Origin: Romanomermis culicivorax | Lineage: Eukaryota; Nematoda; Enoplea; Mermithida; Mermithidae | Length of the DNA stretch: 64,000 bases | Assembly: GCA_963922205.1 (NCBI GenBank) | Contig: CAWUHX010000076.1 | Span: 1 to 64,000, forward strand | Direction of reading: 5' to 3' | Shown: positions 22,101 to 56,700 of the stretch, in pieces | Numbering within the stretch: the stretch's first letter is position 1 | Layout of the letters: the number at the start of each line of letters is the position of its first letter | Program-made: the position numbers and the translations under genes | The notes under the pieces: model-generated | Told to the model about the DNA's origin: nothing | Database searches by the model: none | Seen by the model: only the letters and a program-made list of their open reading frames with translations

Positions 22101-25100
22101 TGCCATAATTCCGGCTCCACGACAGATTTTTCTTTGGCTTCGTTAAAAAACTTTTCATATTTCATTAATGCTTCACTAATTGCAACGAGGCGGCATGATC
22201 AGGCAAAAAGTATTGGAACTTGAAGGCCACAAGTTGGTCATTTGAAAATCGGTTCTCCAATTGGGCTAGAATTTTCGACAGATAGGCCTTGTGAACTTTT
22301 TCTTTATAATAGGCCTTAACTGACGACCAGTCATTTAAATTGTCTTTGCGAAGATGCTTTTCTCGATTTAGAAAGGCTACTGTAATGCCCATATCCTCGG
22401 CCATGCTCTTAAAAATATCCAGTGATATGATAATGATGTTTTCCTTTGATAAAAGATTATGTTGACTGATGCTCACCTTCAACTTTGCGTACAATTCATT
22501 GAATTTCATCTCCTCAATAGCTTCTTTAATCAATGTTGATGTCAGGCAAATTTTTTTATGTGCCGCTATCAAATCCATCGATTCAGTTTGCAAAATAACG
22601 GTCAGATGCTTCAAAATGCCAGCAACTTTTATCGAAACATTGAGAGAAAATATAGAATCAAATGTTGTGATTATATTAATCAAGTCTTCGCCGATTCCGT
22701 CGTTGTCAGTTTTGGATAATTGTTGTAAAGTCGCCGTTATTGGAAGAAACAATTCGCCAAAACTGACCAATGTTCTATGCCGGTCAACCCAGCGAGTTAG
22801 AAAAATTTGTTGGATCCCCTCTTTTTTTGTTTCCGGCAGCATTTGATTGATCATTTTTCTTAAAATGTCCATTCTTTTAGGCCTACCATCAAAAAATACT
22901 AAAATGTCCTGGACTCAGCTCAAAAAATGTTTGATAGGAACAACAGTCGCCACTGTTGTGCAGGTCTTTTCTTAGGATGTTTAAGAAAAGATGCTTCTGG
23001 TCTGAACTGACCTGTTAGAGCTAATTCCTTGGCAAAGCCTCGGAGATCGTGCAACAGTCCAGTTCCCCAGGCCTACAACAACAAAGATAAACTTAGTTTA
23101 AATATGGGGCCTCACGCAGAAACTGCCGCAGTCTCCTAGATGAGATAAGGAGTCCCCGCAGGGATAGACTTACCTTTCTGGATTCCCTAACAGGTCTTCC
23201 AGAGCTTGCAGTCAGCAAGCTGGCACCTGGGCCTTTGGCCCTTCGCTCTTGTCGATCAGTCCGATCTAAATAATAAACAAATATATGTAGCAATAAATCC
23301 GAGGAATAATAAAAAGAATGTGGATTGACCACTATTATTAATATGCAAATATAAAACAAGTTTGCTGGGAATAGTTTAATGGACGCCAGCAAATATCTTT
23401 CAAAAATATAATAAAAACGAGAATATAGTTAAGAATGGTTTCACTATCACTTTTTGTTCTTTCTATGGCCCTCCACTTCTATGCAAATGTCTGCGCCACT
23501 GGTCGTCCATTTCGTCAATTTGCATGGCAATTTCCTGACGCGGCTTGCCATCAACAGGGTGCCCAACACCATGTCCGTTGCCACAAAGTTGAGCTTATGG
23601 CATGAACAATCATAGTAATTACTAATTACTGACCTTACAACTCCATGAAAAACACCATCTTTTTCGTCTGATTCCTCCCAGTGTTTTTTTGTATTGGTCC
23701 ATTTGTACTGGTACAAACGACTTCTCAAAAACCGTTTGTACTCCAGAATTTGCCAAAAATTGCTGAAAAATGGACTCATTGTTATAAAATGCAACAAACA
23801 TGCTGTGAAATATGACTACGTTGACTATTTCCACGAGACACATAAGAAGGCTTCAAATTGAGACATGTAAAATACTTGATCATGAAGCACATAACATGCA
23901 TTAGTGAAATACTCCACAAATAGTTTTTATTATTATGCCACAACTGCTAGTTGGTCGTTTTCGATGTGGACGCATAACAAACAAGTCCTACAAAGTCCAT
24001 TGTTACTGAATACTGACAGCTGTTGAGTAACAATAAATTTTGTTGTCTGAAAATTTCGTTTGTACTGGTACAAACGAAACCCAAATTTTCATTTGTACTC
24101 TAGGCCCATTTGTTTGTAAAGTACAAAAAAAAACACTGGTTCCTCCAGTGAAATAGGACCATAATCTTTATCACCAGGCAATGGAAGTTGGTATCAGGCA
24201 ACAAACCACAAAACCTGTTCATTAAATAATATTTTCAAGTTACAACATTTGAATGAAATAATTCCTTCCATAGATTTACATCTAGCACAATCTTCAGAAT
24301 TTCTCAATTTTTCTTGACGTTTTCTTTATGTACAGAGTTGATTTGCTGAATGACGGTTGTTTTATTATCTTGGTTGTACTTGAAACCAGCCACTGTTATG
24401 CAGCTGTTATTGTGGTATTGGGTAGACAAATGGTTCTTCCAGTCCTCCTAAATAAAACACAATAAAAATTTTGCATAATATATAAATGAAATAATATGTT
24501 ACTTACCTCAAAATCCTTGAATGGCCAATAAGGTTGTGTCACAAATTTTCCCGCTTTATTATTCGAGCCTTGCCCGACTTCTCCTTTTCCAAATATAACA
24601 CACGTTTTACAATAAAATCCGTGCTCAACGTGACTAAAGGCCACATGGTCATTGTTAAACCATCGCTATTGTACTTTCCTAAGCCGTTTTGATTGCAACA
24701 CGAGCTTGAACACATAGTTTGGCTGAGGTTTGAACACGTGATCCAAAAAATCGATTCTCTCGCTGTCCTTTAAACACTGTTTATTTACTGCCAAACATAT
24801 ATCGTATTTTGACAACAGTTGTGGTTTCAACGCAGTTCGAATATTGATCGGTTGAGTGTAGGCGTCGGTTTCATTTTCTCGGGCAGTTATTTCTTCATTT
24901 TCTGAATTCAAAATTATAATTCATTGTGCATCGAAATTTATTGTTTGAATCGAACTAACCTGCTGAGGATACTACTGAAAGGTCTGCTGGCATCGACGAT
25001 TCTGTAGAAGTGGTAGTTGACGCTAGTGTTACAACTGGATTAACATTTAAATAAATTTTAACTCATTAGAACGATGATACAATTTTATTCTAACTAACCT

Positions 25101-41700: not shown

Positions 41701-44700
41701 TGAATTTTCGTAAAATTTGAAAGACCGTAATTCGAAAACAGTAGTCTGTCAGCGCATGATGAAATCTTTGTGTATGAGTTATTACAGATGTATCGGGGAC
41801 CTGGACGCAAGATGAGACGCGAAATTACCCGACCATTTTGTTAAACCCGGACCCGATATTCTTAAAATTTTGGACCCGCGCCCGATACATCTCCAGTTTT
41901 TATTATATATGAAGATATGCCCGTATATCACACAGATTAGCTTAGAAAAGTGTAATGGACACGAAACTACCCGATTCTTTTGGTGAACCCGGACCCAATA
42001 TTCTTGAAATTTTGGATGCTATTGAAGGCACTTTGAGATGTTTGATTTTACAAATTTTCACCTGGAGACGTGTCCTCTTCAGAATGTATTTTCGTTGCGG
42101 GACGTGCAATCGATCTAATTATTATTTGACTCATTTCTCATTTTGTTGAAATGAGACTTTGGTTGAGGTTGAGAAATATAATAAAGGAAATTAGTATCAA
42201 AAATAGACCTAATCAGCCACTCGCTAATTCACCTAATCAGGCCGAAACCTTAGGTAGAATAAGTTTGCAACAGTTCGGTCAGTCTCAAAATCAACAAAGA
42301 TCTCCTGCTTTCGTTCCAAAGAACTGCAGAAGATAAAATAACTCGCTGAGCTCAAGTAACTTCAAACCAGGGGCAAACCTAGAAGTCAGGCCGAGAACTG
42401 AGTTGTGAATGTAGACTTGCACGCTGGGTGGCACTCCAGAAATCGGGGGTCTAACCTGCGTTCCCTCTGCTGCGAGTAATCCAAAGAATGTCCGGCTGCG
42501 GGTCATTGTATTTAGGGCAGAAATTCTCCACCAAATAATAATAAAAAATATTATAAAAATTGCCCTACTGGGCCGCCGATTTGTCTTTATTATAAAATAA
42601 ACAATCAATCAAAGAATGACCAAAAACATAGACGACCAACGCTTTTATGCGCGGTGTCTATGCAAATCGGCATCGACGCGTTTTGCGTCAACTTTGGCTA
42701 TTTTTTCGCAACCTGGAGATAGACTATGTCCATCCCCGACATCCCTCGAGCCTCGAAACTGACCAACGGGAGGTTAAAAAGATTCATATTACGCCGCAAT
42801 GACAATTTAGGAACCTTTTCAGGCCCTAATACAGTCAAAGCAGTTTTCTGGACCTTTTTGGTCATTCATGCCCCCTTGCGGAAAGCTTTCCGAATGACCA
42901 CCCTCTTACGTCAAGTCTTTTTACCAGGCATACCGGAATGTTCACAAGGCCGTCCGGGTGCACTACCTCTTGGTCTGGACTCCGACGGATCAACGACTCC
43001 ACGTCGGCTTGACTTTGTTGGCCTACTGCCGAATCCAATTTGACCTACACCAGGGCCAAGGGTCTTCGGTTGCCGTCCATCCTGTGACCTTTCATTCCGT
43101 GCCATACGCTGGATGTAGGGATAGAACATTTATCTGTCTATCTCTTTCCGGTTGTGTGTTTCTCTGTGAAGTCTCCGCCTTTTTTCCAACGTAATTTACA
43201 AAATATGTACATTAGTACGAGTATCACAACAAAAACAAAAAAAAATCAAATATCCCGGCGTATCGATTGAGCAAAAAAAAAAGGAAAAATAAGGCAAGAT
43301 TATAACCGAGATTAAGTGAAAAAATAAATTTTTGTACATGCCTGTTTGGCTATGCGAGGTACGAAAACGAATAAAAATTTAAAGCACGCAACAATTAAGA
43401 AAAAAATTTTTTTTTGTATTTTGTATTTTATATTTTTTTTTGTATTTCTTTGATTTATATTTTTTTGTATTTTGTGTTTTTTATGAAAAATAAATGCAAA
43501 AAACGATATTTTTTGGCCAAAATATATGCGGCTAAATTACTGTTGCAGCTGGCCGCCTCCTTGCACCCCTCTATGGGCTCCTCCACGACCTCCATAAGGT
43601 CTCCATACCCATTGGCCCTGCTGGCCACACCTCTGCCACGCACTGCTCCACGACCACCCCTGTTGGGGTTGTGGAACTCAAACTGGCCTCGGCCGCGGTT
43701 ACCAGTCTTTTGCACCTTTCCTCGCGTACTCGGGGCTATTTCCTGGCTTCCTTGGCCTTGACCCTGGCCTTGAGGTCCGGGAACCTTCAAAGTAGCACTA
43801 CTTTTTCCGTCTTGAGCTTTACTGAACTTAACAGAGCTTTGCAAGTCTGAACTGGCACTTCTTTTGGCTCCCATCACTCCGACCTGGTGATTGCTACTGA
43901 GCATCACTGATCGAAAGGCCGTTTTGTATTCCAAGGGGGTATCTTGGTTATTATACACCCTCAACAGTCAGTTATTCGCCGCCACCATCGCCCTGGCATA
44001 AATGTTTCCAATATGCATCAGAGATAGCGGGGCACATTCCAACATGAGGAATAGCATTATAACCAAATACCTAACCGAGGAAAACGCATCAGGTGCTCTC
44101 TCCGCCTTGAGCCACCTGGGGAGAAAGTCATACATGACTCTTTCCCAGAGTTCTTCTAATAAGTTGGTCCGATCATAGAGAAAAGCTCCCTGGATTCTGA
44201 ACTGTTGTTCCTAATCCCGGTAGATTTCCCTAATGGCATCATTTACTATGAAGAAAACCCTTTCTGACTCGAATTGCTGGAAAGCAAAATACTTGGCCAC
44301 TGCACTCGTGAAAAATGATATGGGTCCAGATTCTCTGGCTTTCGGTTGATAGACATCCCAGAAGTCCAAGAGACTGTCCTTGAATTTTTCCGCAGTCATT
44401 TCCGACGTTTCAGTTGCCTGAGCAGCCTGTGCCTGCTTAATTTTACTAGGACCAGCCACTTGCACTTGACTAGCTGCCACTCCTGGTTTTTGGTCCTTGC
44501 TGGGTTTTGCCTGACCTTTCGGCGTCCGTTTCCCCATCCCAAGGCGCATTGCGCCTGAAGTTTGACTAGTTTTGGATGTACTATCTTGAGTTGCAGTTGC
44601 CACTGAAGATGTAGCCAATGATGGTGTTCCAGTTGAAGTAGAAGTAATTTGAGAAGTGGGGGTAGCAGTAGAGGTAATTGTAGAAGTTGAGGTCGATATG

Positions 44701-47700
44701 ACAGACGAAGTCGCCATCTTACTGTCTTCCTCTTTCTCTTCTACTTTTGCTCCCTTGATACCCTTCTTCCTCCTTTCCTTCTCCTTCACTCTCATTTTCT
44801 TCTTCCTTTCAGCCATAAATAATATTTTCTCGTTGTTCCAACCCTTTTCTCTCATACTCTGAACGACTTTGGCTGAATACAAACCTGGAACACCCCCATC
44901 AGCAGAGAACGCTATTACCTCCTTGCTCTCCATCATCTCTGATTCGGGCGTTTCCACCTTCATTTCGTCAATAAAGAGCTTATTGGAGGCCATATCGTCG
45001 TCTACCTTCATCAGCGATGGTGGCTCTAATATGACTACTTCCGCTTCCATTTCGGGCGCTGCGGTATCGTATTTTTGGAGTCCCAATTGAATTGCCATTT
45101 GACGAGGTTTTTCGTTGTAAATTGCCGCATTCTTCGCCAATTCTTCCTCCATTAGCTCATGTTGGAGTCGAATCCTTTCCTTCACCTCCTCTTCCATCTT
45201 TAGAATAACCTCTAATCAACGCTGGTTGTCGAGTTCGGACTGCGTCTGAGCAGTTTGAGCTTGCATCAGTTTCGTTGCTGGAACTGATTGCTCTTGCTGC
45301 TGCTCATTTCCGACAGTTCAGTCACATCCTCATCATCAAGTCCTTGGTCTTGCGATTCATCCTCAGCCGGCAGTCCCACTGCATCGCTGAAGATTTCACT
45401 TTCCGACGTTTGGACTTCCTGCAAGCGGCTTGCAGTTCCGAGAACCGCTTTTCCTCAAATGCCTTAGCATACTCCGCCAGCTGAGGCTTCCAGTGATCTT
45501 TGTCAAAATAGCCTACCCCAGGATCAATATCAATAGGCAAATGAACCAGATGATTTTTTAGGGCATCTAGTAGTGCTTGCTTTTGACGATCTTGGGGTAG
45601 TTTGACAACTTTCCTTGCTGTGTCGATGAACCAAACTAAGGACGCTGGCTGCGTAAGCTCCTGATACTGCTTCCCTTGCGCCATTTCCTCCACTAACTGT
45701 AGACGCAACTTATCCTTGGTCGAGAAGTGCTGTTCAGGCCTAATCATTTCGTCGTTGTCGGGATCACTTGCTTCATCATAGGAATTGGGCTTTAATTTTT
45801 TACCCTGACGGTAAGCACCTGGGTAGATGCCCCGCCACGGCAAATTTTCTTTCCCTTTCCTAGGATTACAGATGTCTCGGTGGCAACAAAATTTAAGCCC
45901 TATTTCTTGCACTTGTGTGGCCCATCTTGCGTACATTTCTTGGCGCATCATGTGGTAGGTGGCCTCAGGCTGCCTAACCACAATATCAGGTGTACCCACA
46001 AAGTTACTTAGTTTATAGTCCGTAACTATATATGAGTAAAACTGATAAAATTTATATGAAAGAATTCCAATCTGGGATGGATCGACTATATCGTGAGGAA
46101 AGTTAGCAACCCCCCCCCCCACATAGCTGAATCACGTACCCATAGTGAAATGCCCCCATAAAAATTGCCAAAGAAAAGTACGCATCCATACCAGCATACT
46201 GCAGTATCTCTTCGGGGACTCTTTCTTTGGCCACACTTTGGCTATTACGTAAAAGACCGTAATCAGTCTGGTGAGGACCAATATCAGCCAAATACATTTC
46301 GGCAAAGAGGCCTTTCAATTTCAATGTCTCAGGGCAGATACCTGCTTTCATGGATTTGGTAATCTCGCTTCCCATGATCTGCTTTGCCGTGACCCTTAGA
46401 TCATAGTATCTTCCGAGATTTCCATCCTTGATACTACATCTAATCGCGTCAGACAAGTCGTGACCATCGGTGCTTTTTCCGCATCCACGGACATTGATAA
46501 TCGAAACTATGTCCTCCAAAAGGGTGTAACCAACTAACAACGTCCCTGAGCGTAAAAAGTGTAATAAGATGTTCTACTCTTGCTCTTGCAGCAACGTTAA
46601 ATCGATTACGAACGTTTTACCATTTAGGTGGGCGAACGAAACTAATCTGGCAAACTGGTTGCCTTTTTCATTTTGGACCCCCCCATCTAAATAGTTTTCT
46701 AGCGTCCTTGCGGTTCACCTTCTCTACATCGAAGCCGACAATGTTCATGCCTTGGAAAGTGCTGCTTTCGAGGTGTTTTACCACCCTTTCCACACTTCCC
46801 ATGGGAACAATTATCCGCTCGATAGGGTTGGTCGGTCAGAACTCAAAAGTGGCAAAAAACCACCTTTCTAACTCTGCTATCCACATTGCCCCACGGATGT
46901 TGTGGTCTAAAAATCCAGGAGAGATTTAAATTTTTATACAGACATACTCTACTAACCCTTTATGTGCATTTTCGTGACCCTTTTTGAACTGTTTGGGTAA
47001 TTTTACCCACTACTACTCCTTTAACCTTTGGGGAAAACTCTAGCACCTTTGTGCAGAACACCGTTTAACTTTTGAAATTTTGGAGCGGGAACTTGATATT
47101 TTAGCCTTTCTGGCCGTTGGGTGTCCCTTTATAGAAACCAAAATTGATAGGCAAAAATATGTGAAATTAGGTGTTTTTCACTCTAAACCCAACACACTCT
47201 TACTACTCCATCAGCGCTTAATCGATCACAACCCTGATCTCTACAACTAATTTCTGCTAATCCCCTTCTTTGCCGTTTTGCAGAAACCAGAGGGAGCGGG
47301 AATGACAAGAACCTCCCACAATCGGATCACCTAATTCCACCTAAGTCTTTTTCGGATCACCTAGGTTCGGCCCTTGCCACCCCCTTCTACCTAATTTTTT
47401 GTGTTTAATTCTCAACTCCCAGTTGGTAGCTCGTCCGAGAAAGGGCACAGAAACAGTCTTACAAAACACCCCTGACGAGCGTAACCTCCGCTCATTTTCT
47501 TACCTAACTATTTACAAATAAAAAATGATTGCTTACCATCGATCAAAAAATATCGATTATTCTGCCGCGGGTGGGGCTCCCCAAACTGGACTTTGTCGTC
47601 TGTCTCGTTGTACGTCTGAGTACACTCGTTCGGCGTACCCATTCGAAAAATTTGGGCCCGATTCTTTGCACCGGAATAATTTTAAAAATTTTTTAAACCG

Positions 47701-50700
47701 GATTTGCAGCTGTGAAAAGTAGACAGATGTATAAAACATTTACAGTCTATTCCCTTGCGGCTGCATATTACCTTACGGGAGGGCTCTTTCATTCACAATG
47801 TTTTCAAAAAGATTTGAAAAATAAGAGCAGACGCGGGACACCAAGAAGTTGTAAAATGAAAAATTTTACGAAAACAGGTCTTTCACTTTAAAAGCTTTTC
47901 CCCCGCTCCATTAAAACACAATCCTACATATCAAAAAATATTAAAACCGATTTTAACTGTTACAAAACACAATTGGAATAAATATTTATTAAATATACAA
48001 AATAAATACACACAAATTGGCAGATTTTGCCGCTACAAAACTACATCAGGCGTTGCTCTACTCTCCGCTGATTGCGAAGGTACAGTAAGACCGTACGATC
48101 AATTTTTTACGTAGTTCTGCCATCATGTAGTCTCGTAGCAAAAAATTTTCAGCCTACTTGCCAAAACCTTTTGCTGTAGCAAAAGATTATCATAACGTGC
48201 AATTGTTATGACATTATCTTCTAACCTGGAAACATCAGTTATAATGAAGGGTCCTTCCCAAGTTAAGCCTAGTTTCTTTTGCTTATCAACTTTAAGAAGT
48301 ACCCAATCATTTTCTTTAAAAACTGAGGTTTTAATTTTCTTGTCGAAATATCTTTTGCTAGCTTCCGCTGCTTTCTGGATATTTTCGGCAATAATACCAT
48401 AAAGCCTGGTTAAGTGATCTGTTGGGATGAATTTATATGCCTCATAATTCATGGGCATTACTATTTTAAGTGCTTTTGAGAAATTCATCCCAAACTTTGC
48501 CTCATTGCCCCAAAACAACGCAAATGGTGAGGCCTTCGTCACTGCGTGTGGGGTAGCATTATAGGCAAAGACCACTGATTTGAGATATCTTGGCCAGCTA
48601 TCGGGTTCACCGATAGCTACTTTTCTCAGTTGTTTTATTAGAGTTTGGTTGAACCTCTCTACCATACCATTACCCTGAGGGTGGTAAGCAGTAGTGAAGA
48701 TCTTCTTACACTCTAATAAATCACAAACTGATTTCATTAAATCGGAAGTAAAACAAGATCCATTGTCACTTAGGAGTTTAGTTGGTGTTCCATGCCTAAA
48801 TATTATAGCTTCTAAGAACGCATTCACAACTGAATTTGCTGATTGATCTGGGATCATTTCAGCTTCAACCCATTTTGTGAAATAGTCCTGAAAAACTATA
48901 ACATAAGGTATTCTTTCTCCCAAAGGCGAAATTCCTACTATATCCACGAATACAATGTTGAATGGACCTTGTGGCACAATGGGTATCAATGGAGGAATGG
49001 ATGGCTTTCCTGCAGTTGCCATTTGACAGACAACGCAGTATTTTATCCATTCCCTGACATCTTTTTCCATGCCAGGCCACCAATAATGCATTTTCATGAC
49101 ACTCAGAGTTCTTTTGAAACCCTGGTGTGTCATTATTACAGCACCATGATGCTGATGCAGTACAGAGTCCCTGAGGTTTGCGGGTACGACCAATTGGTCT
49201 TCGCTTTCTGCCTCAGTTTCCCTATACAATACACCATTTTCTTTGTAGAACCCAGTGTGATACTTTGTTGTGCTATTTGCACCTAATCTATCCCAGATTG
49301 GCTTTAAGCTTTTGTCTGCTTTTTGCAGTTTGCTCATCAAGTCATCTGGGATCAGGCCAATAGATATCTCTTTTTCTCCTGATGTTCCCGGTTTATCAAA
49401 TTCCTCCTCCTTTCTAGGGTGTAACCACTGCACATTGTCTTGTTTCTTAGGTATCGCAGATTTATCAGTTTCCTGATTTTCTTTCTGCACCTTTTCTGAA
49501 ACACGAGCTTTGCTTCGGGTTACTACCACTTCTACTCCTTTAGAATGCTCTCTTTCATCCTCAGGACTAATTCGAGCATTCTCTTCTTCCTTCTTATCCT
49601 TGTGGGATTTATTCTTCTCGGAGATGTTGTTCCTCTCGGCCACCAAGGAAATTTGTTGCTGTTCTTGTTCTTTTATTCCTTTGACATCAGAGGAAACAAC
49701 ATCCGATTTGAACATGCTTTCCCACTTCTGTGGTGATTTCACCACATCCTCTGGCTCATCCTTTCTAGAGAGAAAGTCAGCCATAGCATTTTGTCTACCG
49801 GGCACATATTCTAACTTGTGGTTGTATTGATTTATGATCACATACCACCGTTTCAATTTGTCATTTGTTGTAGTATTGACTTTCATTGATAACAGTGGTC
49901 TGCGATCTGTCTTAATCAATACTTTCTGCCCCAATAAATAGTGCCAGTAGATTTTGAGGCTGTAGATAATCGCGAGGCACTCCCTTTCGGTTGTGCACCA
50001 CTTTTTCTCGTCCTCCTTTAGCACACGACTATTGTATGCTATGACCCACTTGTCGTCTCCAGACTCTTGATACAGGACAGCACCTAGTGCTGTTCCACTG
50101 GCATCGGTTTGCAGAATGAACTGGGCTGAGCCATCCATTACTGGGTACCTAAGAATTGGAACCGATACCCGTGCTTCTTTCAAAGCATTAAGTGCTTTGT
50201 AATGATCCTCTGTGATGAGCCATTTATTCCTTTTTTTGGCCGTCAGCTTATACGAAGGTTCTGCGTGCTTTGCCAGATGTGGTATAAATTTTTTACACCA
50301 CTGGAGGATTTTGAGAAACCTTCGCATACGCTTGACCGAGTCCGGGAATTCAAACTCCTTGATAGCTTGCACTTTTCTCGGATCGGGTGAAATTCCATTA
50401 GAATCCAAAATGTGACCAAGAAAATGTACCTTCTTTGGTAGGAATTCACATTTTTCCGGTTTAAGTGTAAGCTGGGCTCGTCTCAGAGCATCCAGGACCA
50501 ATTTCAAATTTTCTATGTGTTCCTCGAACGTGTTCGAGAACACTATGATATCCTCTATGTAAACTAGACATATCTTCCAAACATGAGGATGAAGGATTCT
50601 TTCCATCATCCTCTGGAACTCAGCTGGTGCGTTTTTCAGTCCAAAGGGCATTACTTTGAACTGAAACAACCCTTCTTGACACAGGAAAGCAGTCTTTTCT

Positions 50701-53700
50701 TTACTGCCTTCTTCCATTGGCACTTGCCAATAACCAGACTTAAGGTCAAGAGTCGTATAAACTTTTGCTCTCTCGAGGCAGTCCAGATAATCATCCATTC
50801 TTGGTATTGGATATCGATCATCCTTCGTAACCTCGTTCAAGCCTCTGAAATCAACAACCGGCCTGAGCGACCCATCTTTCTTCCCTACTAGGAATAATGG
50901 CGCCGCCCAGGGCGATCTTGATGGCTCTATGACTCCTTTGTCCAGCATTTCTTGCACATGTTGTCTGATATATGGTCGGCGTTCAATGGCAGCTCTGTAG
51001 TAATGTTTTGCCACAGGGCTAGCATCACCTGTATTAATTTTACAAGTAAGATGGGGAGTAGTTGTCAGAGGATCATGAGGTAGGCTAAATACATCCCGGT
51101 ATTTCACGAGTTGCTGTATCGCCATCTCTTTCTGTTCCTCCGACACTGTAGCTTTAGAGGTCATTTTGTACAATGCTTCCAGAAACACAATTCTATTGAA
51201 TTTTGATTCTTTGGCATCGAAAATGCCCTCTAGGCTACTTTCTCCACTATTTCCTGCTTGCAAAATTGATACACTTGATTCTCCCGGAAATACAGAGTTA
51301 CAGTAGCCAAGAACTTGATTAGGTTCTATCAGGCAACCGGAACCCATATTATTGGAGATCATCAATACAAAGTCCTCCTTTGAACCGTCAACTATAGTAT
51401 CATCTATTCTGAATCTCGTTTCTGAATCATCTCCTTGTATGATGATTCCATTTATTCTATTTGCCGAGGATTTATTCCACAATTTAGCTTTCACTAGCTG
51501 ATCTGTTCCGTGTGGAATGTAAATTCTATTACAAGCCACTACTGGAACTAGATCTTTCAGTTGCTCGATTGTCGAACATTGATCTTCTTCAATAGAATCT
51601 TCTTGTATTGATTCTGCTATCATCAGATTATGCATCCCCACTATTGGAATTGCTTTCTTATCAGATGTTAGCAAATCAATACTTTTCTTTACACCCATCA
51701 TAGTCATTGAACCTTTTCCAAAATCTATTACCGTATTGACTTCCGGATGCGCTAGGAAGTCTGTTCCCACTATTAAATCCTCTGCAGACCCTGGTATTAT
51801 GATAGCTTTAACTGGAAAATGACCATAATCACATTGCATTTGAAATTGAACGTAACCATGCGCACTAACTACTTTACCATTGGCGACAGTGACTTTTAGG
51901 ATCTTAGGGTCCCTGTATACTCCAGTCCAAGTGATTTTTTCAAGAAATCACCCGACATCACCGAACACTGAGCTCCCGTGTCAATCAGTGCCTTTGCAGT
52001 AGTAGAACACACAGTTACCTCAATGTGAAATGGCTGTGTTCTAGGATATCTTGCTAACATATCCAGTTCCTCTGCAGTTGCCTTCCTACCATACTCGGCA
52101 CTGCATTCCATTTCTGGCACATTTTCCTCTTTCTCCATGGCACAATTATGCAGGCCACACAACTTCATCTCCATCATTGGTTCTTGCTGTACACTATTGA
52201 CACCACTAGTCGGCGGTTGGTCTGTCTGCCTGGAGGCTTGCGACGGACTAACTACCTTTTGTGGAACCAACAGGGTATTTGAACTCTGATTTGCGATTAC
52301 TGGTTGTTGGTCCATTAGATTTGGTCCTGGTAACATCAGCTGGGTGGTAGCCTGTAACAATCTCATCTGCTCCCTGAGCTTCTTCAACTTTACGTATTCC
52401 TGAAACTCGGCATATTCTTGCAAATTTTCCGCCTCGTCGTCAGGAAACGAAACTTGATAAGCTCCCCTTTCGCCTTCATTACCAAAACCTCCTCTACTTC
52501 CTCCATAATTTCCTCTGAAATTACCTCTGAAATTTCCTCTACCTCGGAAATTCCCAAAACTTCCTCTAGGACTTCCTCTTCCAAAGCCTCTTCCACTATT
52601 TCCACCCCTTCCACGATTTTGTAGACCTTTATAAAAATTCAAGGTTCTACAGTCAATCGTGTTGTGAGTGTTATTTTCGTGGTAAGTACACCATTTTCGC
52701 TGCTGAACCTCTTGTTGACTTTTCGCTTTCACTTTATCAACTTTCTGAGTTAAAGCAGTTATGGCTTCCTCTTGAGCTTTGGTCGAGTTCCTAATCTCTT
52801 CATAACATTGTGCCATTTTGATAAATTCTTTAGATAAAGCCACCATGAGGGAGTCCTTTTTTGGCTCCTCAACAGGCTGTTGCCGAGGCATTATGGCCTG
52901 TTGCGGAGGTACTTCAAGTACTTCATCATCTGCTATATCTATCAATTGATTTTGCGAAGATTGCATTGGAGTTTGCCTTTCTGTGTTTGGTCTTCTAAAG
53001 TCCCTATTGCGCTTTTGGACGCTTTCATAAGGCCTTTGGATTACATTCACATCGGCTTGCTGCTCCTCAGCAATTTCCGTTTGTGCCGTGTTTATCATCA
53101 TGGGCTGCTCTCTTGGCCCAAATGTTCTAATTGCATTCCGGTACTTTAACTCTATCTCATAGACTGCCTGCGAAAGATCATACCAATTTTTGGATTTTGC
53201 TATGTCTTTCTGCAGTTCTAATTGATAAGTTAAAGAACTTCTATAGAAAAAGGTTTCAATGATTACTTTATTTTTAAACTCTTTTGTTTCACTCTGGTAA
53301 ACGAGATTCACATGTGCTCTAACCCTTTTTAAAAATTTGGTTGCTGCTTCATCGGGTTCCTGTTTAATATCCAATAAATCCCCTTTGAGCATGTCCAGGT
53401 TACAGTCTGGAGCACAATAATTCAAAATCTTGTCTCGGGCCTCCCTATATGTCGTTGACTCTTCGGCCAATTCTTTCGGCAAGTCCCTTGACAAACTGGT
53501 TAATGCTTCTAGCTTCACCTCATCGGGAGTATTCTTTCAAAACTCGCCTTCTAGCTCCACTAGAAAAGCAAGAACCTGTTTACTTGGCATATCAGATTGC
53601 AGTAATTTCGGTTTGATTGCCCTTTCAATGTCATAGACAGTTGGGCCTACTTGAGCGGGATTGACCCATAAGGCTGGATCAATCGGAATCATTGTAGGCA

Positions 53701-56700
53701 TAACCTGCTGCCTGACACTTGGTGTCTCTCCCCTAATACAACTGCTCTGTTGTGAGATAGTTGGATTTATCAGACTCGGGTTTTTTACGCCTTCGTCAAA
53801 ACCACAACTACTCACTCTCTGCTCCACTTTTGAGGTAGTGGGCAAATGAGGCATAAACTGCTCTTTAGGACCGAGACTTGACTTTTGGTCTTTCCATCTA
53901 CAGTCTTGCTGAAGAGTGATACCATCGTTTTGTCACACTAACTCTTCCTGGGCCTGCTCAAACTTCAATGCACCACCTTGTTCCAAACAACCAGCATTGC
54001 TTTGCCTTGATTCATTTGCCTTACTGGCTTTCTGTGAACCTGTATTAGCAATGTTGGCAAATATGCTATCATAAACATCTAACCTGTTCATGATTTGGTC
54101 CAGTTTATCCTCCAATGAGCTCTTTCGAGGATTTTCGCGGTGTTCTTCCTGCTCATTGTCCCAATAGAATCGATGGTAAGTATCGAATAATTGGGCGGGT
54201 TTATTTATCGGCCCGCGCTGCTGTTGATCGAAAACTGGAATGTTCATCTTCGGTAATGGACGCGCCAGTCCCGTCATAGGTGGTTGTAAATATTCGCCTC
54301 TCTCCGGGAGGTTCGTCGATGACGGAATTTTAAAAATTTGATCTTCGTTGGCCGATAATATGGCGTCGTTGTCCTCCCTCTCGACAGCTGTCGAGGTCGT
54401 AGGTCGGTTGCCTTCATTTTCCACGGATAAAGGCCTATGATCTGAGCAATTGTCCTCTTCAGCTGAAGTTCCAGCTGAAGTTAGGACAATTAACTTTTCT
54501 GTATCACGGGCCTTTTTTCCCGGTGGTGTTCTGGGCAAACCGGAACTCTTGAGGCCACCTAGGTTGTCTTTATTCATTTTGTAACCTCCCAGTTCTCTAT
54601 GGAAACCAATAGGTTTTTTGACTCCTCGAGTTTGCCTCTGATTTTCCATTACTTTGAGAGTCAGAAGCCACGACTTGTTGAAATGAGACTTTGGTTGAGG
54701 TTGAGAAATATAATAAAGGAAATTAGTATCAAAAATAGACCTAATCAGTCACTCGCTAATTCACCTAATTAGGCCGAAACCTTAGGTAGAATAAGTTTGC
54801 AACAATTCAGTCAGTCTCACAATCAACAAAGATCTCCTGCTTTCGTTCCAAAGAACTGCAGAAGATAAAATAACTCGCTGAGCTCAAGTAACTTCAAACC
54901 AGGGGCAAACCTAGAAGTCAGGCCGAGAACTGAGTTGTGAATGTAGACTTGCACGCTGGGTGGCACTCCAGAAATCCGGGGTCTAACCTGCGTTCCCTCC
55001 GCTGCGAGTAATCCAAAGAATGTCCGGCCGCGGGTCGTTGTATTTAGGGCGGAAATTCTCCACCAAATAATAATAAACAATATTATAAAAATTGCCCTAC
55101 TGGGCCGCCGATTTGTCTTTATTATAAAATAAACAATCAATCAAAGAATGACCAAAAACATAGACGACCAACCCTTTTATGCGCGGTGTCTATGCAAATC
55201 GGCGTCGACGCGTTTTGCGTCGACTTTGGCTATTTCTTCGCAACCTGGAGATAGACTATGTCCATCCCCGACAATTTCATCATTATATTCATTTCATTTT
55301 TAGTCTACAGATGACGTTTATTCGGGTTACATTGCCAACGAAGCTTTCAAGGTTTTCGCAGATGAACATCAGACCACGCTCTAGTGAGTAGATACTGGAC
55401 ATAACGTAGACTACATAAATGCCCAAAATTCAAATCGTTAGTTTATAAAGTATCATCACACCAACTTTTGAATCATATCCAGCGCTCGCTTTTGGAATGG
55501 TTTGTGATGCATACTTCAAGAATTTCATAGTCTGATTATTTACTGCAACCTGCCATGATTGAAGATTGAGGCCTAGCATGTTCCGCCATATTTACTAATT
55601 CTATAAGTATTCATGTCACAATTAATGTGTATTTTTATGCAACAAGTTATCATGCGGAAGTCAAAGTCGCTTACTGAATTTCCTATGTATGACATTTTCT
55701 TAATTTTTAAGCAAAGCCAGAAACTACATGCAATTTCCTTGGGATCACTACCGTGATCGAGCAAGACGACAAGTGTTATACACTGACAATATCAGATTGC
55801 AGCATTATTTAGAGGAACACGTGCATCCGTCGTTAGAAGTATTCGTTTACAAATTGTGTATATGTTTTTTAGAGGTTTTACACAAAGAATGTGCATATAA
55901 TTTTTCGATCAAGTTGTCTGATTAGAACAAGGTTATTTCATTAATTTTAATGTTGATCAGAATTACGAATTCGTTAGTACCAGCGAAGATTTCGCGCGTG
56001 GAATGACCAATGTGATTCAAAAATCCGTTCTCCAGCACTTCGTCTACCATAAACATTCTCCATGACATTCATTACGCTTAAAATTTATCTTTAGCTCGCG
56101 TGTAGGAGCATCGAATCTGCGATGGCTAAATTTGAAGAAGTCTTCAAATCTGTCGTATATTCTACCGGAAAAGTAATGTTTTTTAGAGAGTCTGGTGGCT
56201 TGTAAATTATATTCACTTATTTTAATTAGGCCGTAGAAGAAGAGTCGATAGTTTTAGAACGTGTAACTGATATTTTGACAAATCTGTTCGTCATGACTAC
56301 GGCTATTAGTAGAGCTTCAAGAAGCTACTGCATAGGATTGCGAAACAGTGACATAGAGGTGAATTTTTCATATCATCTCAAGTTTCTTTTCTTAATAGAG
56401 AAATTTATGCTCGTTCTGTTAATGTTTTGGCCACTGGCGAATAGTCAGGTTCACAATTTATATGCAGTTCCATTTATAGAATATTCTTACCGGAAAATAG
56501 CACAGTTTAATTCAGATTCTTAGCACATCTTTGAGTATATGTTTAACATGATTTTCTACTATCTCATATGCTATCTTACGTTATTCACATAGGTTTTCCT
56601 TTTTACAGTTGACTGTCACCGACGGTCTGTGCTGGGACTTAAAAGTGAAAACGGCGCACTTGTTAACGGAGCTTATTGACCGTGAGATTTAAATGCATTT

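Follow-up and report, generated by a model that had tools for sequence, protein, structure and literature searches.

Here, we have analysed a 64,000-nucleotide stretch of the genome of the mermithid nematode Romanomermis culicivorax (the window) and found that it holds a Ty3/gypsy LTR retrotransposon copy that has decayed and whose third open reading frame (ORF3) lies in the position of env. We consider it quite probable, judging from sequence comparison, that this ORF3 encodes a DEDDy exonuclease followed by about 1,100 further residues, that it is maintained by selection, and that its product, which would be expressed by splicing, trims 3′ ends for the benefit of the element. We show that the exonuclease belongs to the element, that numerous copies and several families have it, and that it falls into the same two Ty3 clades as the integrase. 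In keeping with a nematode host, a ribosomal protein L3 exon of this genome has its best PDB match in 9bh5, a C. elegans ribosome; an SL1 RNA search matched neither this genome nor any control genome and is uninformative.

The element occupies positions 42144..55273 on the minus strand (13,130 bp). It is bounded by two LTRs of 598 bp that begin with TG and end with CA, the 5′ LTR at 54676..55273 and the 3′ LTR at 42144..42741 (both minus strand), which differ by 15 mismatches over 599 aligned bases. A target-site duplication, AAAT, is read from the flanks at 55274..55277 on the 5′ side, in the orientation of the element, and at 42140..42143 on the 3′ side. The gag/protease region (51899..54748, minus strand) consists of three open pieces (54748-53936, 53932-53537 and 53536-51899) and ends in an aspartyl-protease-like stretch, upstream of the reverse transcriptase, that matches PF13650 at E 0.0034, under the Pfam cut-off. 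The pol open frame of 1274 aa (48126..51947, minus strand) has the domain order of Ty3, with reverse transcriptase at residues 355-514 (RVT_1, E 4.2e-36), RNase H at 607-708 (RT_RNaseH, 8.8e-29), the integrase zinc finger at 921-977 (Integrase_H2C2, 1.1e-18) and the integrase core at 994-1090 (rve, 3.8e-13). By its LTRs, its short target-site duplication and the order of reverse transcriptase, RNase H and integrase, the element is a Ty3/gypsy LTR retrotransposon, as an earlier note on this DNA had proposed.

The same note had claimed that D-x-E, G-x5-D and Y-x3-D motifs lie in this order between the integrase and the 3′ LTR. They do, on the minus strand and in two frames: GFDVE (Exo I) is located at 46736-46722, downstream of the integrase, GYTLLED (Exo II) at 46531-46511 and YAGMD (Exo III) at 46198-46184. 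The first piece of the exonuclease (46671..46835, minus strand) holds GFDVE and by itself has no match to PF01612. The second (46577..46714, minus strand) is in the other frame, covers the stretch between Exo I and Exo II without a Pfam match of its own, and ends at a stop at 46576-46574. The third, a piece of 156 aa (46106..46573, minus strand), continues the second frame and holds both GYTLLED and YAGMD. Since the motifs are spread over two frames and the second frame contains a stop, the ORF3 of the window copy is broken. It continues in an open piece of 269 aa (45325..46131, minus strand), which has no Pfam match and has its counterpart inside a 1398-aa open frame of another copy, L039, and in a C-terminal part (43458..45215, minus strand; open pieces 45215-44214, 44210-43971 and 43967-43458) made up of a charged and low-complexity stretch, a stretch with no known domain and a tail rich in glycine and arginine. 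The ORF3 of the window's family, which we call family A, likewise extends for about 1,100 residues after the exonuclease, part of it charged and its end rich in Gly and Arg, and a Pfam search of this continuation gave no match. A late, weakly similar stretch of ORF3, also with no known domain, may be common to families A and C (L039 1795-2844, minus strand, against L050 3040-3528, plus strand; BLASTP E 4e-5).

When the 156-aa piece was searched against the genome (359,112,060 bases in 595 contigs), 150 places, the window included, were scored among 2379 first-look candidates, and the other 149 were 84-93% identical to it. At 39 of the 150 places the frame ran without interruption for 1396 or 1398 codons, and stops lay inside the matched stretch at 22. 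With this many places, 39 of them intact, the exonuclease segment is no unique insertion. The earlier note had held that copies lacking the segment would speak against its proposal; instead, the domain is found behind integrase in further copies and in further families as well, some of them with intact frames. Searches with the exonucleases of families C and B returned at least 136 and at least 151 matches, respectively, with identities falling as low as 23-43%, and several of these lay in long open frames. Genome-wide, PF01612 exceeded its cut-off at 80 places, some of which could be host exons. Pol lay upstream of ORF3 in all four ten-kb stretches of family A (L039-L042), and an integrase frame lay upstream of the exonuclease at seven of eight divergent loci; at the eighth, L061, there was none of at least 120 aa. 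As we group the copies, the exonuclease lies behind integrase in nine families (A, B, C, F59, F60, F62, F63, F64 and F65). On contig C158 of the same assembly (G000), three exonuclease fragments with the same scores and stops are regularly spaced by 5,778 bases (182059-194068), as though a decayed piece of an element had been duplicated in tandem.

The assignment of the domain as exonuclease-like came from the relatives of the window copy. Relative to the curated cut-off of PF01612 (23.6 bits), the 156-aa piece was sub-threshold (E 0.29), and so were two intact copies of family A (E 0.033, 14.4 bits, and E 0.034); the divergent family A copy L044 had no match to this model. Family C exceeded the cut-off in L050 (E 1.5e-7, model positions 20-166; 31.8 bits) and L054 (4.5e-7; 30.3 bits), with three shorter pieces of the family at 0.12, 0.033 and no match, and family B exceeded it at 5.2e-11 and 1.7e-13 (43.1 and 51.2 bits). 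Under the cut-off were F65 (0.0028 and, for L066, 1.4e-4; 17.9 and 22.1 bits), F60 (1.4e-4; 22.1 bits), F62 (0.012; 15.9 bits) and F59 (0.068; 13.4 bits), and F61, F63 and F64 alone had no Pfam match. The profile check suggested by the earlier note was thus passed by the sister families B and C but not by the window's own family. Families A and C align by BLASTP at E 2e-15 with all three motifs aligned, family A and F64 at 1e-75 with the motifs in register, and a profile of the clade I families (A, C, F63, F64 and F65) aligns with family B at 4e-6 by hhalign. The DEDDy motifs are in register across an alignment of 16 rows. Because the homologous sister families B and C reach the cut-off of PF01612, we assign the window's family to DEDDy; through these relatives the homology is firm, and at the level of sequence it is confirmed that the ORF3 of the window starts with a DEDDy-type (RNase D/EXD2-like) 3′-5′ exonuclease-like domain.

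Searches of the PDB gave no significant structural match. The sole match listed for the 156-aa piece was an unrelated shikimate kinase (E 1.8), an intact ORF3 of family A found nothing relevant, a profile of families A and C had 0 hits, and the clade I profile had EXD2 as its best match (E 0.096) next to an unrelated chain (0.21). An AlphaFold2 model of the 156-aa piece alone, from a single sequence, had a pLDDT of 36, too low for any statement on its fold. All NCBIfam matches were below the cut-off; they included models of bifunctional exonuclease/polymerases for L066 (0.001) and L047 (2.3e-5), RNase D for L047 (0.0043) and an unrelated shikimate kinase for L039 (0.16), and L050 had none. A scan of IMG/VR with family B found no relative.

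Pairwise comparisons support purifying selection on the exonuclease domain, with dN/dS of 0.05-0.17. The ratio was 0.12-0.17 in family A (five pairs with a finite dS among the 14 listed, all including L044), 0.05-0.11 in family B (14 pairs listed) at dS above 1, and 0.16 in the one pair of family C, while pairs between A and C were saturated and gave no value. For comparison, pol of family A gave 0.07-0.24 (six pairs) and the other parts of its ORF3 0.08-0.31. Counted over 34 rows of family A, which are 30 distinct copies (four of them under two locus names), there were 62 synonymous and 34 nonsynonymous distinct codon changes, with one stop set aside (P 1.3e-18 against neutrality), and 50 and 20 when L044 was left out. 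The copies in this test were the best protein matches, which lowers dN and biases the result towards conservation; the deep comparisons within family B are less affected.

In 37 rows of family A (32 distinct copies), the catalytic E, D, Y and last D were unchanged and the first D was replaced by N in one row, a constancy that alone is weak, as 189 of the 245 columns of this alignment are invariant. All five motif residues are kept in A, B, C, F59, F63, F64 and F65 where the rows cover them. F60 lacks an aligned Y, and F61 lacks both the D of Exo II and the Y. In F62, which is otherwise an ordinary Ty3 family, D-x-E and the last D, that is, three of the five catalytic residues, are replaced, and the D of Exo II and the Y are kept. 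The domain of F62 is nevertheless free of stops over 230 codons in all seven copies (L062, L067-L072), with 13 synonymous and 12 nonsynonymous distinct changes (w about 0.29, P 2.1e-3). It is likely that the domain of F62 has been kept in a non-catalytic form, possibly as a pseudoenzyme lineage. Since it has been kept without three of the five catalytic residues, binding would be a more likely role for it there than cleavage.

Two trees were compared, one of the exonuclease (17 rows, with E. coli RNase D as the single outgroup) and one of the integrase (12 rows). Clade I is made up of A, C, F63, F64 and F65 in both trees, and clade II of B, F59, F60 and F62 in both, together with F61 in the exonuclease tree. 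Support was 100/99 for clade I and 96/95 for clade II in the exonuclease tree and 100/100 for both in the integrase tree; several branching points inside the clades are unresolved, and there are some long branches. Because the same two Ty3 clades are found with either protein, the exonuclease has most likely been inherited together with the integrase. With one outgroup, the split between the clades fits one or two captures alike.

How ORF3 could be expressed is suggested by the sequence at its start. Where the conserved peptide of ORF3 begins, there is a T-rich run ending in AG in ten of ten rows from five families, which were picked by the peptide (the window, L039, L040 and L044; L063; L064; L065 and L066; L052 and L053), and the G of the AG together with the next two bases reads as Asp. 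In the window, this candidate 3′ splice site lies at 46907..46920 on the minus strand. In all six rows of family B, a T-rich stretch is followed by an AG that precedes the first ATG by two bases; L050 of family C has no clear AG boundary. A search by eye for a splice donor in gag gave several candidates, none of them decisive. The recurrent boundary suggests that ORF3 may be made by cis-splicing, from a spliced subgenomic RNA, in the manner of retroviral env.

We argue that the ORF3 protein probably trims 3′ ends of RNA or of single-stranded DNA. Such trimming could serve the replication of the element itself, or it could counter silencing by host small RNAs, in either case to the benefit of the element. 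In lineage F62, the domain would more likely bind than cleave. A more far-reaching proposal is that in mermithid nematodes a spliced exonuclease in the env position has become central to two Ty3 clades, is under selection there and has diversified into catalytic and catalytically decayed forms, and that it trims or binds host small RNAs against silencing, or processes the 3′ ends of element RNA or cDNA; we regard this as distinctly speculative and would not expect it to hold in full.

It is conceivable, if rather unlikely, that ORF3 is mainly a structural or RNA-binding protein by virtue of its C-terminal part and Gly/Arg tail, with the exonuclease serving as a binding module in which catalysis is dispensable. 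The stop-free but catalytically altered domain of F62, the losses in F60 and F61 and the Gly/Arg-rich end of family A ORF3 would all fit such a role, and Rodriguez et al. 2017 (PMC5408684) describe Maelstrom and EXD1 as DEDD derivatives that are inactive but still bind RNA. Against it, the seven families with complete motifs have kept all five residues, where covered, even though the families of clade I are only 20-44% identical to A. We find it very unlikely that the exonuclease is a passive passenger that was captured by template switching and kept by hitch-hiking alone. The broken frame of the window copy and the stops at 22 of the scored places are what a passenger would show, and no significant departure from neutrality is reported for the bdelloid ORF3s (PMC5408684); but the low dN/dS of family B at dS above 1, the 39 intact frames and the retention of the domain across two Ty3 clades speak against it.

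In env-bearing Ty3/gypsy elements of the errantivirus type, ORF3 also lies in the env position and may be expressed by splicing. That the present ORF3 could be an env-like membrane protein that merely resembles an exonuclease would agree with its position, with the candidate splice acceptor and with a borderline hydrophobic window (1.61) at residues 1215-1233 of family A ORF3. However, the highest of the 19-residue hydropathy windows (1.68) falls on Exo II, within the core of the exonuclease, hydropathy revealed no convincing transmembrane segment in family A ORF3, no env-type Pfam match was found in the window pieces or the intact copies, and the sister families match PF01612. The ORF3 studied here differs from that of the errantivirus type in having an enzymatic domain and no convincing transmembrane stretch, and we give the env-like reading hardly any credence. 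It would be just as surprising if the three motifs were chance matches in a non-homologous protein. The sub-threshold score of the window piece alone and the lack of a significant PDB match by profile would allow this, whereas the alignment of A with C with the motifs aligned, the matches of C and of L066 to PF01612 and the hhalign match to B all argue for homology.

We would like to point out that LTR elements of this kind have a precedent. The earlier note had contrasted the element with canonical gypsy elements, and an exonuclease domain is indeed present in the position of env; the arrangement as such is already known, in that DEDDy exonuclease ORF3s were described in the Juno and Vesta LTR retrotransposons of bdelloid rotifers (Rodriguez et al. 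2017, PMC5408684). From that description, Juno and Vesta share with the present elements a DEDDy/RNase D-like ORF3 downstream of pol and its occurrence in more than one LTR lineage per host. The present elements differ in their nematode host, in the ORF3 of the window's family, whose length of about 1,398 codons includes a long additional C-terminal region, in a motif that is DEDDy where DEED is reported for the rotifers, in the presence of catalytically decayed lineages, and in the purifying selection detected here, where neutrality was not rejected for the bdelloid ORF3s. In the same publication, the activity of the bdelloid ORF3s is called yet to be shown, and processing of the 3′ ends of element RNA is suggested. 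Related DEDDy exonuclease ORFs are described for Terminons, which are Athena Penelope-like elements and not LTR elements (PMC6431247, PMC5408684), and retroelement-borne DEDDy ORFs are also mentioned in PMC6338049 and PMC5718144. With the cellular DEDDy exonucleases (RNase D, WRN, EXD2, MUT-7 and RRP6), the domain shares the order of motifs, PF01612 and weak PDB matches; it differs from them in its low sequence similarity, in being borne by an element and in its fusion to a long C-terminal region with no known domain.

Our literature search, whose coverage left subscription journals and preprints mostly outside, found no report of exonuclease-carrying LTR elements in nematodes. Relative to the bdelloid precedent, what is new is the nematode host, the radiation into two clades, the signal of selection, the lineages with decayed catalysis and the recurrent splice-like boundary, and exonuclease-carrying LTR elements are thereby extended beyond rotifers. 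Rodriguez et al. 2017 (PMC5408684) left open whether enzymatic ORF3s benefit the elements that carry them. The several families, intact frames and selection signal in R. culicivorax make this question testable, and the catalytic and catalytically decayed versions provide a natural contrast.

Elsewhere in the window, a 249-aa open frame at 22168-22914 on the minus strand is by eye reminiscent of the proteins of hAT-type transposons, but matched no Pfam model within an E-value limit of 0.01. At 391-855 on the plus strand, a 155-aa open stretch has weak similarity to tyrosine recombinases (PF00589, E 0.0024, under the cut-off) and may belong to an element of the Crypton or DIRS kind.
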